Below, in pieces: positions 1,469-12,977 of a stretch of 12,977 nucleotides of DNA. The stretch spans positions 1 to 12,977 of the forward strand of contig JAAOIF010000011.1 of assembly GCA_015163925.1 (NCBI GenBank), given 5' to 3'. Every line of letters starts with the position of its first letter. The first letter of the stretch is position 1. The position numbers were made by a program, and so were the translations under genes. The notes beneath the pieces were generated by a model. The model was not told where the DNA came from and made no database searches. It saw only the letters and a program-made list of their open reading frames with translations. This DNA comes from Candidatus Thioglobus sp. Lineage in GTDB: Bacteria > Pseudomonadota > Gammaproteobacteria > PS1 > Pseudothioglobaceae.

Positions 1469-1918
1469 CTAAATAGTTTTATTATTAATATGTTTGATGG
1501 CGGCGTTAATGGCAAATTCGTATCCTAACGCCCCAAAACCGCAGATTACGCCAGCGGCAATATCGGAAAAATAAGAGTGCTGGCGAAATTCTTCACGCTG
1601 ATAAATATTAGACAAATGTACTTCAGTAAATGCAATCTCCACAGCCAAAAGTGCGTCCCGTAGCGCCACAGAGGTATGAGTAAAAGCCGCCGGATTGATA
1701 ATAATATAGCTGATTTTTTCCTCAAGCGCTTGATGAATTCGCTTAATCAAACCAGCCTCAGCGTTGTCCTGATGGTGCGTTAGCGTAAGATTTGCTTGCT
1801 TTGCCAAGCCGCTCAGATGCTTGACAATTTCCGCTAAACTCTGGCTGCCATACCGGTCCGGCTCTCGTTTTCCAAGCATATTCAGATTTGGTCCGTTGAG
1901 TAATAAAATATCCGCCAT
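1469..1918 (-). CDS. aroQ: 3-dehydroquinate dehydratase, type II
   Basis: This enzyme converts 3-dehydroquinate to 3-dehydroshikimate in the shikimate pathway. The 149-residue length is standard for the type II dodecameric family, which is unrelated to the AroD of E. coli. The N-terminal signature [18 protein letters not shown] contains R18 and the catalytic Y23. N75 lies in [18 protein letters not shown], the catalytic H101 in [15 protein letters not shown], and R112 follows. All these agree with the family pattern as I know it from the Mycobacterium enzyme. The ATG at 1918 fits the family N-terminus, although no Shine-Dalgarno sequence is evident. The gene lies 9 bases before accB and 87 bases after dsbD; the dsbD-aroQ-accB-accC order is the one I know from Pseudomonas. 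Confidence 0.97.
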
Positions 1919-1948
1919 TTGAGTTTTTTTTAAGTATTAAGAAAAATG

Positions 1949-1976
1949 ATTTTACCAGCAATATCGTGAATTTTAA
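1949..1976 (-). promoter_or_regulatory. Possible promoter for aroQ-accB-accC
   Basis: In the 87-base gap after dsbD, the minus strand holds TTAAAA (1976-1971), a 16-base spacer and TAAAAT (1954-1949), about 31 bases before the aroQ start. The -10 box matches five of six consensus bases and the -35 four of six. In AT-rich DNA such matches arise by chance, and read-through from dsbD is an equally good explanation for aroQ expression. No terminator is visible in the gap. Confidence 0.25.
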
Positions 1977-2005: not shown

Positions 2006-4216
2006 TTATTTGGCTTGCTGCAAACGGCTAATAAAATTCTCAGCACTAATTTCGCCAATAATCCGCTGTGAGCGTTTTTCAATTCCGGCTTTAAAAAACA
2101 AAATCGCCGGCGGCCCGACTATGTTAAAACGCCGCATTAGAGCCTTATCAGCGGCATTATTTTTGGTCACATCAGCTTGTAAGGCAACCACATTTTGCAT
2201 ATTCTCAACCACTTGTGAATTGGAAAATACAATTCGCTCCAGCGCCTTGCAAGAAATGCACCAGTCGGCGTAAAAATCCAGCACCAGAGCCTGATTATTT
2301 TGCCGAGCTTGGCGTAATTCTTGGTCTAAATCTTGGATTGATTTGATGGGTTTAAAAGTAATATGCGCTTGCTGCTGTTGCCCCTCAATGCTTGATAAAC
2401 CGTAGCCTGAGAGCGGAGCAAACATATCGCCGCCGCCGCGTGCTACCAGCACCCAGAGCAAAATTCCATAGCCCAAAATAATCAGCCCAATAGCTTTAAA
2501 TATCCGCCGCCAAGGGGTTGTGGCATTCGCAAAAACGCCCATTGCAATCGGGGAAATTGTTAGTAATAATGCCCATAAAATTAGAGCAATATTCGCCGGC
2601 AGCACCCGCTGGATAAAGTAAATCGCCAGCCCTAACATAATTACTCCAAACACTTGCTTGACGGCGTCCATCCACGCCCCCGGTTTTGGCATTGCAACCC
2701 CCGTGCCAGCGACAATTAGCGGCATTCCCATTCCCATTCCGAGGGCAAATAATGAGCCAGCTCCAAGCCAAATATTATCAACATTTGACTGGGCAATATA
2801 CAAAAGTGCCGCACTTAAAATCGGTGCCGAGCAAGGCCCGACAATTAGTGCTGATAAAAATCCCATAATCGCCACGCCGATGAAGCTGCCGCCCTTTTGT
2901 TTATTGCTAATTTGGGTGAGTTTATTTTGCAAAGAGTTTGGAATTTTAATCTCAAAATAACCAAACATTGAAAATGCCAAAGCCACAAAAATCAGGCTAA
3001 ATCCGACCAAAACCCAAGGATTTTGCAAGACAATTTGGATTTGCTCGCCTGATTTTGCAAATAAAATTCCAATCAAAGCGTAAGCCAGAGCCATAAATAT
3101 TACAAATATTAGTGACATAAAAAAGGCTTTTTTGGTGGATATTTTCTGCGCTTGGCCGATAATAATTGTTGATAAAATCGGCATCATCGGCAAAACACAG
3201 GAAGTGAAAGCTGCGCCCAAACCGGCAATAAAAAAGAAAAATAATAGCGAATAAAAGCTTTTGCCTTGCAGAGATTGAATGATTTGTTCGGCTTCGGTTA
3301 GCTCGGTTTTGGAGGTTTCAGCAGGCTCAAAAGTGTTAGAATTATTACTAATGGATTGCCCCAAAACCTTTGCTACTAAAGGGATTTGCAAGGTTTTCTG
3401 CTGCGGCGGATAGCAAACTCCACCCTCCCAGCAGCCTTGATAATTTGCAGTCAGACTGACGCTTTTTGAATGAATATTTTGCAGTGGAATCTCAACCTCC
3501 ACTTGGTTTTTATGCACTTCCACTTTGCCAAATGTGAGGTCGTTTTTGATTTTGCCTTTGGGCAGTTTAATTTTGCCGATTTTTGCGCCATTTAGAGCAA
3601 AGGAAAATTTGTCATGATACAAATAATAATCTGGGTGAATGTCCCAAATTGCCTTTAATTTATTGGCATTTACCGCCAGAACAGTTAGTTTAAATGCCTT
3701 GTCAGGCGGCAACGGGACTTCATCAGTAATGCCAGCAAACACAGACCGGGCTTTGGATTGAGCCTTTGCCAGTAAGTCAAATGCGCCATCCACGCTGGGG
3801 AATTTTGTGGATTTTAGCGCCAAAGTAACCGACTTTTTAATCGGCGGATAACCAATTCCAATATCGGCATAACCTTGATAAATTACCGTCAGAACAATAG
3901 ATTTTTCCACGCCGGGCAGCAGCAGCAGACGGATTTCAACATTTTTACGATAAATGCTGGTAGCGCCAAAAAATACATCATTTTGAATTTCTGCTGGCGG
4001 AAAATTTGCCGCCCCGAGCCGTTCTGGGAGGTCGGCGCTGATGCTAATTTTGTCTTTATATAAATAGTGGCCTCTGGCGATTTTCCAGTTCAGGCGGATT
4101 TCATTATTAACGATTTTTGCTTTAAAATCAAAGGCTTGGTCGGCTGACAAGACTTCGCCTTGTGCATAATTTGATGCAGTAAAAATTAGCAAAAATGTTA
4201 GTAAAAAATGTTTCAT
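2006..4216 (-). CDS. dsbD: Thiol:disulfide interchange protein DsbD with a duplicated N-terminal domain
   Basis: DsbD carries electrons from cytoplasmic thioredoxin across the inner membrane to periplasmic proteins such as DsbC. At 736 residues it is much longer than the 565 of E. coli. A signal peptide (about 1-20) is followed by two copies of the nDsbD-type domain, about 25-135 and 170-282. The second has the redox pair C262/C268 in YQGCWEGGVCYPP. The first reads YQGYADIGIGYPP and has no cysteine. Residues about 320-592 are the membrane core, with eight likely helices, C340 (TSCVLPM) and C462 (GPCSAPI). The C-terminal thioredoxin-like domain has the W-C-I-S-C-K motif (C653, C656). So all six working cysteines of canonical DsbD are present, and the first domain is an extra. 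The gene starts 42 bases after grpE. TATAAT lies at 4229-4224 but has no convincing -35 box and sits only 8 bases from the ATG, so co-transcription with grpE is likelier. Confidence 0.96.
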   Translation of the reverse strand: MKHFLLTFLLIFTASNYAQGEVLSADQAFDFKAKIVNNEIRLNWKIARGHYLYKDKISISADLPERLGAANFPPAEIQNDVFFGATSIYRKNVEIRLLLLPGVEKSIVLTVIYQGYADIGIGYPPIKKSVTLALKSTKFPSVDGAFDLLAKAQSKARSVFAGITDEVPLPPDKAFKLTVLAVNANKLKAIWDIHPDYYLYHDKFSFALNGAKIGKIKLPKGKIKNDLTFGKVEVHKNQVEVEIPLQNIHSKSVSLTANYQGCWEGGVCYPPQQKTLQIPLVAKVLGQSISNNSNTFEPAETSKTELTEAEQIIQSLQGKSFYSLLFFFFIAGLGAAFTSCVLPMMPILSTIIIGQAQKISTKKAFFMSLIFVIFMALAYALIGILFAKSGEQIQIVLQNPWVLVGFSLIFVALAFSMFGYFEIKIPNSLQNKLTQISNKQKGGSFIGVAIMGFLSALIVGPCSAPILSAALLYIAQSNVDNIWLGAGSLFALGMGMGMPLIVAGTGVAMPKPGAWMDAVKQVFGVIMLGLAIYFIQRVLPANIALILWALLLTISPIAMGVFANATTPWRRIFKAIGLIILGYGILLWVLVARGGGDMFAPLSGYGLSSIEGQQQQAHITFKPIKSIQDLDQELRQARQNNQALVLDFYADWCISCKALERIVFSNSQVVENMQNVVALQADVTKNNAADKALMRRFNIVGPPAILFFKAGIEKRSQRIIGEISAENFISRLQQAK

Positions 4217-7356: not shown

Positions 7357-7423
7357 GTCACCCTGAACTTGATTCAGGGTCTCGTTTTTACAAGATGAGA
7401 TTCTGAATCAAGTTCAGAATGAC
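7357..7423. repeat. Nested palindrome resembling a REP/BIME-type element
   Basis: Two 27-base arms (7357-7383 and 7397-7423) are inverted copies of each other around a 13-base spacer. They share the 15-base core CTGAACTTGATTCAG and outer GTCA/TCTC ends, and differ at four bases. Each arm is also a hairpin by itself: CCCTGAA-CTTGA-TTCAGGG on the left and ATTCTGAA-TCAAG-TTCAGAAT on the right. The four differences are paired within each arm (CC with GG on the left, TT with AA on the right), so both small hairpins stay intact. The element could act as a terminator for either gene, or be a dispersed palindromic repeat; one window cannot show whether it is repeated in the genome. Confidence 0.75.
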
Positions 7424-7562
7424 AAGCGGCTGGAGTTCAGAATGACAAGTGGCTGGAGTTCAGAATGACAAGCGGCTGGAGTTCAGAATGACAAGCGGCT
7501 GGAGTTCAGAATGACAAGTGGCTGGAGTTCAGAATGACAAGTGGCTGGAGTTCAGAATGACA
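7411..7562. repeat. Tandem repeat, 23-bp unit, six full copies plus a 14-base partial copy
   Basis: Units start at 7411, 7434, 7457, 7480, 7503 and 7526, with a partial unit at 7549-7562. Each reads AGTTCAGAATGACAAG, then C or T, then GGCTGG. The only variable base is position 17 of the unit, which goes C, T, C, C, T, T. The first 13 bases of unit 1 are the end of the right arm of the adjacent palindrome, so the array seems to have grown from that arm. There are no spacers, so it is not a CRISPR array. No plausible reading frame crosses it. Confidence 0.95.
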
Positions 7563-8886: not shown

Positions 8887-8918
8887 AATTTTCACTGAAT
8901 TTGACTTGATAAAAGTAT

Positions 8919-8947
8919 ATTATTAAGTGAGTTCTGCCGATTGTCAA
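8919..8947 (-). promoter_or_regulatory. Promoter for sqr
   Basis: On the minus strand a perfect -35 box TTGACA (8947-8942) is followed by a 17-base spacer and AATAAT (8924-8919), five of six consensus bases. Transcription would start near 8912 and leave a leader of roughly 25 bases before the ATG at 8886. No clear repressor or activator site is visible around it. Confidence 0.65.
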
Positions 8948-8978
8948 ATATATCTGCCAAAAATTCGCCAAAACGCCT

Positions 8979-9006
8979 TTGATTTTTATGCCTCAGACTG
9001 TATAAT
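8979..9006 (+). promoter_or_regulatory. Promoter for the atp operon
   Basis: TTGATT (8979-8984), a 16-base spacer and a perfect TATAAT (9001-9006) form a sigma70-type promoter reading toward atpB. The leader would be about 60 bases. It contains the decamer TTTTTAATGA three times (9026, 9036 and 9048) before a modest ribosome binding site, TAGG at 9062-9065. Confidence 0.6.
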
Positions 9007-9025
9007 TTATGTTTTTTTTATAGCA

Positions 9026-9057
9026 TTTTTAATGATTTTTAATGATATTTTTAATGA
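9026..9057 (+). repeat. Triple direct repeat TTTTTAATGA in the atp leader
   Basis: Identical 10-base copies occupy 9026-9035, 9036-9045 and 9048-9057, between the predicted atp transcription start and the atpB ribosome binding site. They may result from slippage, or mark an A/U-rich leader that eases translation initiation. No protein binding can be claimed from the sequence. Confidence 0.85.
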
Positions 9058-9064
9058 GATTTAG

Positions 9065-10155
<1,091 letters not shown>

Positions 10156-10192: not shown

Positions 10193-10663
10193 ATGAATAT
10201 AAACGCAACTTTATTTGGGCAAATGATTATGTTTGCCATGTTTACATGGTTTTGTATGAAGTTTGTCTGGCCGCCGCTTGTGGCTGCTATGGAAGAACGC
10301 AAAAAGCGTATTGAAAGTGGCTTATTAGCAGCCGAGCGGGGACTTTCAGAACACAAGGAAGCCCAGCAAAAATCACAAGAAATATTAGCTGCCTCTAAGG
10401 ACCAAGCGGCTGAAATTATTGCGAATGCTGGCCGCCAAGCAGCGACTATGGTTGAAGATGCGAAGGGAGTTGCCGCCGAGCAAGCCGATAAAATCAAGCT
10501 AAATGCTAAGGCGCAAATTGAGCAAGAATCCAAACGCGTTAAGAATGAGTTAAAAGAGCAAGTTTCCGGCTTGGTAATGCAGGGCGTGAGCTCGGTTTTA
10601 GCCAAAGAAGTGGATGCTCGGACTCATCAAGATATGCTTGGAAAATTGGCGCAAACCTTGTAG
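10193..10663 (+). CDS. atpF: F1Fo ATP synthase subunit b
   Basis: Subunit b is the peripheral stalk that holds F1 against Fo. The protein is 156 residues, the same length as in E. coli. A single N-terminal membrane helix (about 5-27, beginning [10 protein letters not shown]) is followed by the cytoplasmic turn [16 protein letters not shown], with R36 at the conserved place. A long charged coiled coil rich in A, E, K and Q then runs to the end. The ATG at 10193 is supported by this exact N-terminal agreement, although only a weak GTGA precedes it. atpE ends 37 bases upstream and atpH starts 8 bases downstream. Confidence 0.97.
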
Positions 10664-10671
10664 AATTGCCT

Positions 10672-11220
10672 ATGGAACCGACTTTCATCGCCAAACCTTA
10701 TGCGAATGCAATTTTTGAAATTGCCGCTAAAAACAGCTCACACGCCAGCTGGTCTGAGGTTTTGCACGCCGGGGCGGCACTCGCTGAGGATAAAAACATG
10801 CAAGCTTTTATTGCCTCTCCGAGTGTTGCAAAAGTGGCAAAAATCGCTGCTGCTAAAGCATTATTTGCCTCAGTTTTAAAGCGTTCAATTAGTGCTGAGG
10901 AAGGCGCTTTTGTGGAATTATTATTGGAAAATTCACGCTTTTCTGCCCTGCCGAGTATTTTGCAATTATTTACTGAAATGAGTAATATTAGCAGTGATAG
11001 CAAGGCTTTTGAGGTTGTAAGTGCGTATGAATTAAGCCGGCAGCAGCAGCAGCAATTAGTCGGCGATTTGAGCAAAAAATACAATTCTCATATTAAAATC
11101 AACGCCAGAGTTGATGAAAATTTGCTCGGCGGAGTGCTGATAAAATCTGGCGATAAAGTGATTGATTTATCAATTCAGGCGCGGACAGCGGAGTTGCAAA
11201 GCCGCCTGTCGGCTAATTAA
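10672..11220 (+). CDS. atpH: F1Fo ATP synthase subunit delta
   Basis: Delta joins the top of F1 to subunit b in the peripheral stalk. The 182-residue protein starts [18 protein letters not shown], the usual N-terminus, so I chose the ATG at 10672; the in-frame TTG at 10666 would add two residues. The C-terminal signature is [20 protein letters not shown] with VIDLSIQAR after it. A run of five glutamines (124-128) sits in the linker between the helical N-terminal domain and the C-terminal part. The ribosome binding site is poor, and translation is probably coupled to atpF, whose stop lies 8 bases upstream. Confidence 0.95.
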
Positions 11221-11242
11221 AACATTACAAAAACATTACAAA
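11221..11242 (+). repeat. Tandem 11-base duplication before atpA
   Basis: AACATTACAAA occurs twice in direct succession (11221-11231 and 11232-11242), immediately between the atpH stop and the atpA ribosome binding site. It lengthens the atpH-atpA gap with unstructured A-rich sequence, which may favour ribosome loading, but it could equally be a slippage product. Confidence 0.8.
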
Positions 11243-11254
11243 AGAGGAAAAATT

Positions 11255-12400
11255 ATGCAATTAAACGCCAACGAAATTAGTGATTTAATCAAACAACAAA
11301 TTCAAGGTTTTGATTTTAAAGCAACTGCGCGGACGCAAGGCACGGTAATTAGCGTCAGCGATGGGATTGTGCGGATTCACGGCCTGAGTGATGTGCAATT
11401 TGGTGAGATGCTGGAATTTCCGAATAATACTTTTGGAATGGCTTTGAACCTTGAGCAAGACTCGGTCGGAGCGGTGATTTTGGGCGATTATTTGCATATT
11501 TCACAAGGCGATATTGTCAAATGCACTAAGCGTTTGGTGGAAGTTCCGGTCGGCGAGGCGATGCTCGGGCGGGTGGTAAGTCCGCTGGGCAAGCCGATTG
11601 ACGGCAAGGGTGAGATTAAGGCTCAGGGCGAGCGGCCGCTGGAGGTGGTGGCGCCCGGAGTGATTGAGCGGCAAAGTGTAAATGAGCCGATTCAGACTGG
11701 CATTAAAGCGATTGATGCGATGGTTCCGGTCGGACGGGGGCAGCGAGAACTGATTATTGGCGACCGGCAAACTGGCAAAACTGCCGTGGCGGTGGATGCA
11801 ATTATTAACCAGAAAAATACCGGCGTGAAATGTGTATATGTGGCGATTGGGCAAAAGGATTCCTCAGTTGCCGCAGTGGTGAGGAAATTGGAGGAACACG
11901 GAGCGCTGGAAAATACTATTGTGGTAAATGCGAGTGCCGCTGATTCCGCCGCCCTGCAATACATTGCGCCGTATGCCGGCTGCGCGATGGGAGAATATTT
12001 CCGTGACCGCGGCGAAGATGCTTTGATTGTTTATGACGATTTAACCAAGCAGGCATGGGCTTATCGGCAGGTTTCATTACTGTTGAAGCGACCTCCGGGG
12101 CGTGAGGCTTATCCGGGCGATGTGTTTTATCTGCATTCTCGGCTGTTGGAGCGGGCTTCAAGGGTGAATGCAGAATATGTGGAAGCCTTCACGAAAGGCA
12201 AAGTTAAGGGGCAAACCGGCTCGCTGACGGCGTTGCCGATTATTGAAACTCAGGGCGGCGATGTCTCAGCTTTTGTGCCGACTAATGTGATTTCCATTAC
12301 CGATGGGCAGATTTTCTTGGAAACTGATTTGTTTAATGCCGGCATCCGTCCAGCGACGCCCTCAAATTTTAGGCGTTGTATTTTTGTTTCACTGCCCTGA
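11255..12400 (+). pseudogene. atpA: F1Fo ATP synthase subunit alpha, cut off after residue 367
   Basis: Alpha is the non-catalytic nucleotide-binding subunit of F1. The ATG at 11255 has a good ribosome binding site (GAGG at 11244-11247) and gives [16 protein letters not shown], the family start. Numbering is identical to E. coli: Walker A GDRQTGKT is at 169-176 with K175, followed by [25 protein letters not shown] and the segment [20 protein letters not shown]. The match ends at NAGIRPA (A367, base 12355). Fourteen unrelated codons and a TGA at 12398 follow, giving 381 residues instead of about 513. The lost part includes the arginine finger (R376 in E. coli, nine residues further) and the whole C-terminal helical domain. 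The DNA beyond the break is the 3' end of an alkyltransferase gene on the other strand, and atpG, atpD and atpC are not seen. This is either a true rearrangement or an assembly join. Confidence 0.9.
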
Positions 12401-12609
12401 TTAAATCCGCCTAAATCGCCATTTGCTTTAACCACGCGGTGACAAGGCACTTCTGGCGCAAATGGGTTTTTGTTCATTGCCGAACCAACGGCGCGACCGG
12501 CATTAGGATTGCCTCCCATTAATTTTGCCAAACCTCCGTAGGTAGTAACTTTGCCGGCCGGCACTTTGGTTTTTAAGGTGCGGTAGCAATGTTGTTGAAA
12601 TTCGGTCAT
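12250..12609 (-). pseudogene. Methylated-DNA-cysteine S-methyltransferase-like protein with foreign C-terminus
   Basis: This family moves alkyl groups from O6-alkylguanine in DNA to its own cysteine. The protein has only the DNA-binding/catalytic domain, as in small MGMT-like proteins: KVPAGKVTTYGGLAKLMG, then NAGRAVGSAMNKNPF and the active-site PCHRVV with C56. [22 protein letters not shown] ends the recognisable part at residue 85. After that, 34 residues are simply atpA read on the opposite strand, so the natural C-terminus (probably a short tail) is missing. The catalytic core appears whole and the product could still work. The ATG overlaps the stop of kdsC as ATGA, so the two are translationally coupled. 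Whether it is an active alkyltransferase or an ATL protein cannot be fully settled, but the cysteine favours the former. Confidence 0.85.
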
Positions 12610-12977
12610 GAGAGATAAATTTTTACAGCAGCATCAAATTTATTTTGCGCTTTGAGGACAAAATCTATCGCCTCTCTGACCGCTCCATGCCCGCCGCTTT
12701 TATTAGTAATAAAATCAGAATTTTGCTTGACCAAATCGTGGGAATTAGCGACTGCCACTGCAAATCCGACCTTTTGCATCACCGGCAAATCAATCACATC
12801 ATCGCCCATATAAGCCACTTCATCAGCACTAATATTTAACTTTTTCAGCAGCTCGGCAAAGGCAATTAGCTTGTCATTTTGCCCCTGATAAAAATGCTCA
12901 ATGCCCAAATTTTTCATCCGATAATCCACACTTTTGGAATTTCTAGCACTAATTACCGCCGCCGCAATTCCGCTTGC
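12606..12977 (-). CDS. kdsC: 3-deoxy-D-manno-octulosonate 8-phosphate phosphatase (5' end beyond right edge)
   Basis: KdsC removes phosphate from KDO 8-phosphate, a late step in making the KDO sugar of lipopolysaccharide, in the cytoplasm. The open frame continues to the last base of the window, giving 123 C-terminal residues of the usual ~170-190. Visible HAD-family parts are AAAVISARNSK (motif II, with S-A-R in place of the usual T-G-R), YRMKNLGIEHFYQGQNDKL (with the motif III lysine), EVAYMGDDVIDLPVM (motif IV, GDD) and GGHGAVREAIDFVL near the end. The N-terminal nucleophile motif DVDG lies outside the window. A GTG at 12929 is internal and is not the start. The gene implies a Gram-negative outer membrane with KDO. 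Confidence 0.93.
   Translation of the reverse strand, partial: ASGIAAAVISARNSKSVDYRMKNLGIEHFYQGQNDKLIAFAELLKKLNISADEVAYMGDDVIDLPVMQKVGFAVAVANSHDLVKQNSDFITNKSGGHGAVREAIDFVLKAQNKFDAAVKIYLS

Follow-up and report, generated by a model that had tools for sequence, protein, structure and literature searches.

A probable false join between atpA and a downstream methyltransferase gene in a draft genome of Candidatus Thioglobus sp.

The ATP synthase genes of many SUP05/Thioglobus-clade bacteria are followed downstream by a gene for a methylated-DNA-protein cysteine methyltransferase domain protein (MGMT). The loci collected from named relatives number 80; AtpA is matched in 74 of them, and MGMT is present as well in 27 of those 74. 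In all 27 it is a minus-strand gene, found 3.13-3.85 kb past codon 367 of atpA. In the remaining loci MGMT is absent or the locus ends before its position is reached; at least one contig (L064) runs past atpC with other genes there and has no MGMT within it.

Contigs built by de Bruijn assemblers are left overlapping by K bases. Chimeras formed by multiple displacement amplification (MDA) have been catalogued: a published set contains 475 chimeras, of which 69 are direct and 11 of those span less than 10 kb (PMC1855051). In the same study, 85% of MDA chimeras are inverted, and two or more bases are shared in 90.9% of the direct ones under 10 kb (PMC1855051).

The window, meaning the whole stretch of 12,977 bp analysed here, is the entire contig C22 of draft genome G000 (1.168 Mb in 230 contigs, 86.4% complete, 1.8% contamination). 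The named best matches of its AtpB are SUP05/Thioglobus-clade gammaproteobacteria, the top one being the thiotrophic symbiont of Bathymodiolus brooksi at 85%. Upstream of the break described below, the window is largely collinear with nine of the 12 relative loci aligned, and in the DNA alignment with the same-genus locus L108 the match starts only at about 8978. The names atpE, atpF, atpH, atpI, aroQ, accB, accC, grpE, nadK and recN are ones that we assume from the look of the sequence and from position. The features that bear on the argument are as follows.

1779..1958, no strand: stretch in and upstream of the aroQ-like gene, matching the first 180 bases of contig C208 at 98.9%, inverted; C208 then diverges
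3789..3909, no strand: dsbD stretch with which contig C9 begins (121 identical bases); C9 continues into a trpB that starts at profile position 49 of 385
9074..9901, plus strand: atpB, 275 aa, open frame; TIGR01131 above cut-off, single copy in the draft
9928..10155, plus strand: presumed atpE, 75 aa, open frame; named by operon position and family features
10193..10663, plus strand: presumed atpF, 156 aa, open frame; named by operon position, aligns with relatives' operon DNA
10666..11220, plus strand: presumed atpH, open frame from TTG 10666 with an ATG at 10672; named by operon position
11255..12355, plus strand: atpA codons 1-367, open frame; TIGR00962 profile positions 1-358 of 503
12355..12356, no strand: junction of atpA with the 3' end of MGMT, direct orientation, skipping about 3.7 kb; the alignment with contig C207 starts at 12356
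12356..12609, minus strand: MGMT, TIGR00589 and PF01035; last codons lost at the junction
12606..12977, minus strand: kdsC, cut by the contig end; TIGR01670 above cut-off, PRK09484 below its cut-off

The original prediction described an intact upstream operon whose atpA ends abruptly at residue 367 (base 12355), with no atpG, atpD or atpC after it, and each of these points is borne out. The upstream frames are open and undamaged. AtpA starts at ATG 11255 and reaches codon 367 (GCG, 12353-12355), after which 14 foreign codons continue in frame to a TGA stop at 12398-12400. The C-terminal domain of AtpA is absent from the Pfam scan of the window, and the lost part presumably includes the arginine finger. 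Downstream the window contains no atpG, atpD or atpC; a complete F1Fo ATP synthase operon, with a full atpA together with these three genes, is thus not found in it.

The change at the break is sharp. In 35 of 38 relative rows (one locus was entered twice, and several genomes are represented by an unnamed as well as a named locus) the residues there read GIRPAINAGLSV, while the window has 10 others, so the switch is not due to chance. Similarity to the relatives' DNA ends at 12354 or 12356 in 11 of the 12 loci and earlier in the twelfth, L067. Because the relatives' similarity stops at 12354-12356 and the alignment with C207 begins at 12356, the switch point is placed at 12355/12356.

Several possible sources of the join were considered and set aside. 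As for a join driven by shared sequence, at most one base is common to both sides: the window has GCGACGCC at a place where GCGATTAA or similar stands in most relatives. Tandem arrays occur in the window at 7411-7562, 9014-9062 and 11219-11243, and none is at the junction. MDA is a poor fit as well, because the join is direct with at most one base in common, and the 123 contigs compared yielded no inverted self-repeat.

Two further observations concern the upstream part of the window. The array at 7411-7562, between recN and an oxidoreductase gene, consists of 6.6 tandem copies of a 23-bp unit, and sequence resembling it is also present on other contigs of the draft, e.g. C150. No atpI-like frame stands directly upstream of atpB (8896-9073); those of the same-genus relative G001 (117 aa) and of the B. 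brooksi symbiont (113 aa) stand directly upstream of atpB.

The sequence past the break had been taken for antisense of an unrelated gene. It is instead MGMT, which normally follows the operon in many relatives, and its source can be traced within the draft. Window positions 12356-12977 align base for base and in unchanged orientation with C207:3212-3833, differing at 10 of 622 positions. Six of these differences are synonymous, three change a residue and one falls in the overlap of MGMT and kdsC. The tail past the junction is a second haplotype relative to C207.

Contig C207 (5,628 bp) carries most of what the window lacks next to this tail. Its genes are, in order, atpG from profile position 73, atpD, a 109-aa ORF and atpC; next, on the opposite strand, come a DUF3565 gene, MGMT and kdsC, and more genes lie beyond. 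The normal neighbours of the window's tail, namely atpC, the DUF3565 gene and a complete MGMT (a 100-aa frame), are therefore found there, upstream of the shared stretch. The 109-aa ORF (2215-2544, L006) is hydrophobic; tblastn gave no match for it in the 80 relative loci, and its Pfam matches are all far below cut-off. The DUF3565 gene (2960-3166) has a relative in one of the 80 loci (L090).

Since MGMT stands 3.13-3.85 kb downstream in the same orientation in the relatives, the window skips about 3.7 kb, comprising the atpA 3' end, atpG, atpD, atpC and the MGMT 3' end. Of this stretch, C207 carries about 3.1 kb. The other 0.67 kb or so, a length estimated from relatives, covers the C-terminal part of atpA and roughly the first 72 codons of atpG and is on neither C22 nor C207. 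Two queries from G001 for the atpA C-terminus and atpG start gave no match in G000, and the same queries match in five of five other family genomes tried. A search for the missing end of atpA followed by atpG, proposed with the original prediction, was thus answered in part: no such fragment was found in the draft, but atpG (from position 73), atpD and atpC were recovered on C207.

This arrangement bears on the suggestion that two distant loci were joined, either by the assembler or through an inversion. Distant-looking joins do exist in the draft: C207 itself fuses atpG to epmB, a gene with no match in any of the 80 relative loci, which cover up to 21 kb on and around atpB. The partners at the window's junction, on the other hand, are neighbours in the same orientation in all 27 relative loci that have both, and again on C207. 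A distant origin is thus hardly credible; in the order seen on C207 and in the relatives, about 3.7 kb separates the two sides, and the orientation kept across the junction speaks against an inversion.

The same contig bears on the idea that the end of the operon was lost for good and that a second operon supplies the ATP synthase. No support for it was found. The draft contains one atpA and one atpB, which at 86% completeness is no proof of absence, and atpG, atpD and atpC are still present on C207. Permanent loss with a second operon copy is very improbable; the original prediction had suggested such a copy. Most likely, the operon of this species runs atpBEFHAGD, the 109-aa ORF and atpC, with the DUF3565 gene, MGMT and kdsC behind it on the other strand.

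Assembly artefact and recent deletion, both named in the original prediction, stay as the two live options. Contig C22 is probably chimeric at 12355/12356, that is, the product of a false join. The assembly would have connected atpA codon 367 wrongly with the 3' end of MGMT, so bypassing about 3.7 kb. Such a false link may have come from chimeric library molecules or from graph errors in a strain-mixed sample assembled at K = 121, the source being a guess. The missing 0.67 kb may lie on a contig too short for the bin: if a branch point bounded it on either side, its contig would measure about 0.9 kb with the 121-bp overlaps counted in. The shortest of the 123 contigs compared has 1,505 bp, which would fit a bin length cut-off near 1.5 kb.

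Evidence for false joining comes from the rest of the draft. 123 of its 230 contigs were compared with each other (639,916 bases, 65,065 of them N), giving 246 ends. The overlaps counted were those of at least 60 bp, at 95% identity or more, that lay further than 150 bp from either end of the host contig. In this draft alone, 34 of the 246 ends, the window's 3' end and 33 others, sit inside another contig and then diverge from it. BLAST found no homology beyond the divergence point at any of the 34. The overlap is exactly 121 bp in 16 of the 34, and it is 100% identical in 18 and not identical in 16; we read 121 bp as the K of the assembly graph. No N bases occur within 300 bases of any of the 34 junctions.

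Several of these ends fall within genes that are intact in the host contig. A scan of ten host genes showed six at full length (EpmB, PheT, TypA, DsbD, SoxA and GpsA); XseA is nearly full, DnaX and a FadB-like gene are partial, and one has no family. Past the junctions, 20 ORFs (from 20 of the 34) were scanned. Those for trpB, FadD and GmhB begin mid-profile at the junction. The DnaX, SulP and RarA pieces are partial, with frames that extend to the contig end. Five others (transketolase, AnmK, DapE, oligopeptidase A and a cytochrome oxidase assembly protein) are complete or almost complete, so no gene is cut on that side of their junctions. The remaining ORFs gave three weak or partial matches and six none.

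The gap has an odd fusion at either edge: C22 is joined to MGMT, and C207 opens with 121 bases of antisense epmB. These 121 bases are identical to a stretch inside C150, and the EpmB encoded there is full length. The window also hosts two of the 34 ends, those of C9 and C208; the one of C9, within dsbD, is probably another false join touching this contig. A separate redundancy is seen between C175 (14290-15939, L218) and C47 (1484-3133, L169), which share 1,650 bp at 97.1%, inverted, before diverging; this is the longest redundant stretch among the 123 contigs compared.

The main rival to a false join is a true deletion of some 3.7 kb, through illegitimate recombination, in some members of a strain-mixed population, because the join is local and in direct orientation. 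The order and orientation of both sides are kept, like those of a true deletion, and a random chimera is seldom so. Such a deletion would remove the atpA 3' end, atpG, atpD, atpC and the MGMT 3' end. Cells carrying it would have no working F1, and would either draw on other ATP sources or form a short-lived, unfit class. The tail differs from C207 at 10 of 622 bases, so a second strain is present; this haplotype would be expected of a deletion strain as well as of a chimera. The assembler also chose the junction path over the intact path. Against a deletion stand the 33 other such ends in the draft; several fall in housekeeping genes of which the other contig has an intact copy, so not all of them can be real losses.

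The junction was also not seen in any other genome of the family that matches here. A total of 83 were searched, including G000, and 33 match neither side and are uninformative. A match spanning the junction was found in none of the 49 others that match its left or right side, G000 being the sole genome of its species among the 83. In 35 of 39 genomes other than G000, atpA reaches the end of its profile; it is in two pieces in G017, G018 and G032, and none was found in G029 (62% complete). No published account of the junction was found in the literature searched. On this evidence a real deletion is unlikely. It is still less likely that a subpopulation of this SUP05-clade sulfur-oxidiser recently lost the catalytic head of its ATP synthase (the atpA 3' end, G, D and C), kept atpBEFH and persists beside intact cells, obtaining its ATP, e.g., by substrate-level phosphorylation or from a host.

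Recognising a probable false join keeps ATP synthase loss from being wrongly claimed for a SUP05-clade bacterium. It also flags the whole draft: any missing gene, fusion or unusual neighbourhood taken from it needs checking, because 34 of the 246 ends examined run into the interior of another contig. A deletion, if real, would be remarkable as a loss in a lineage that is expected to depend on respiration.

The junction can be compared with known systems in three ways. MDA chimeras likewise bring together two genomic segments at a sharp joining point with a deletion between them, but they are mostly inverted and the near ones mostly share two or more bases, while the window's join is direct with at most one (PMC1855051). 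Chimeric contigs of short-read, strain-mixed drafts resemble it: their junctions lie without homology inside intact genes, their ends overlap by a fixed length, here 121 bp, and a second haplotype follows the junction. The window differs from them in that its junction is local and in direct orientation. Set beside the atp operon of the SUP05/Thioglobus clade, the window lacks the middle 3.7 kb, and C207 has an extra 109-aa ORF seen in none of the 80 loci; among the relatives themselves, at least one, L064, has no MGMT after atpC on its contig. The order from atpB to atpA is nevertheless the same, and MGMT and kdsC stand downstream on the other strand, as in the 27 loci.
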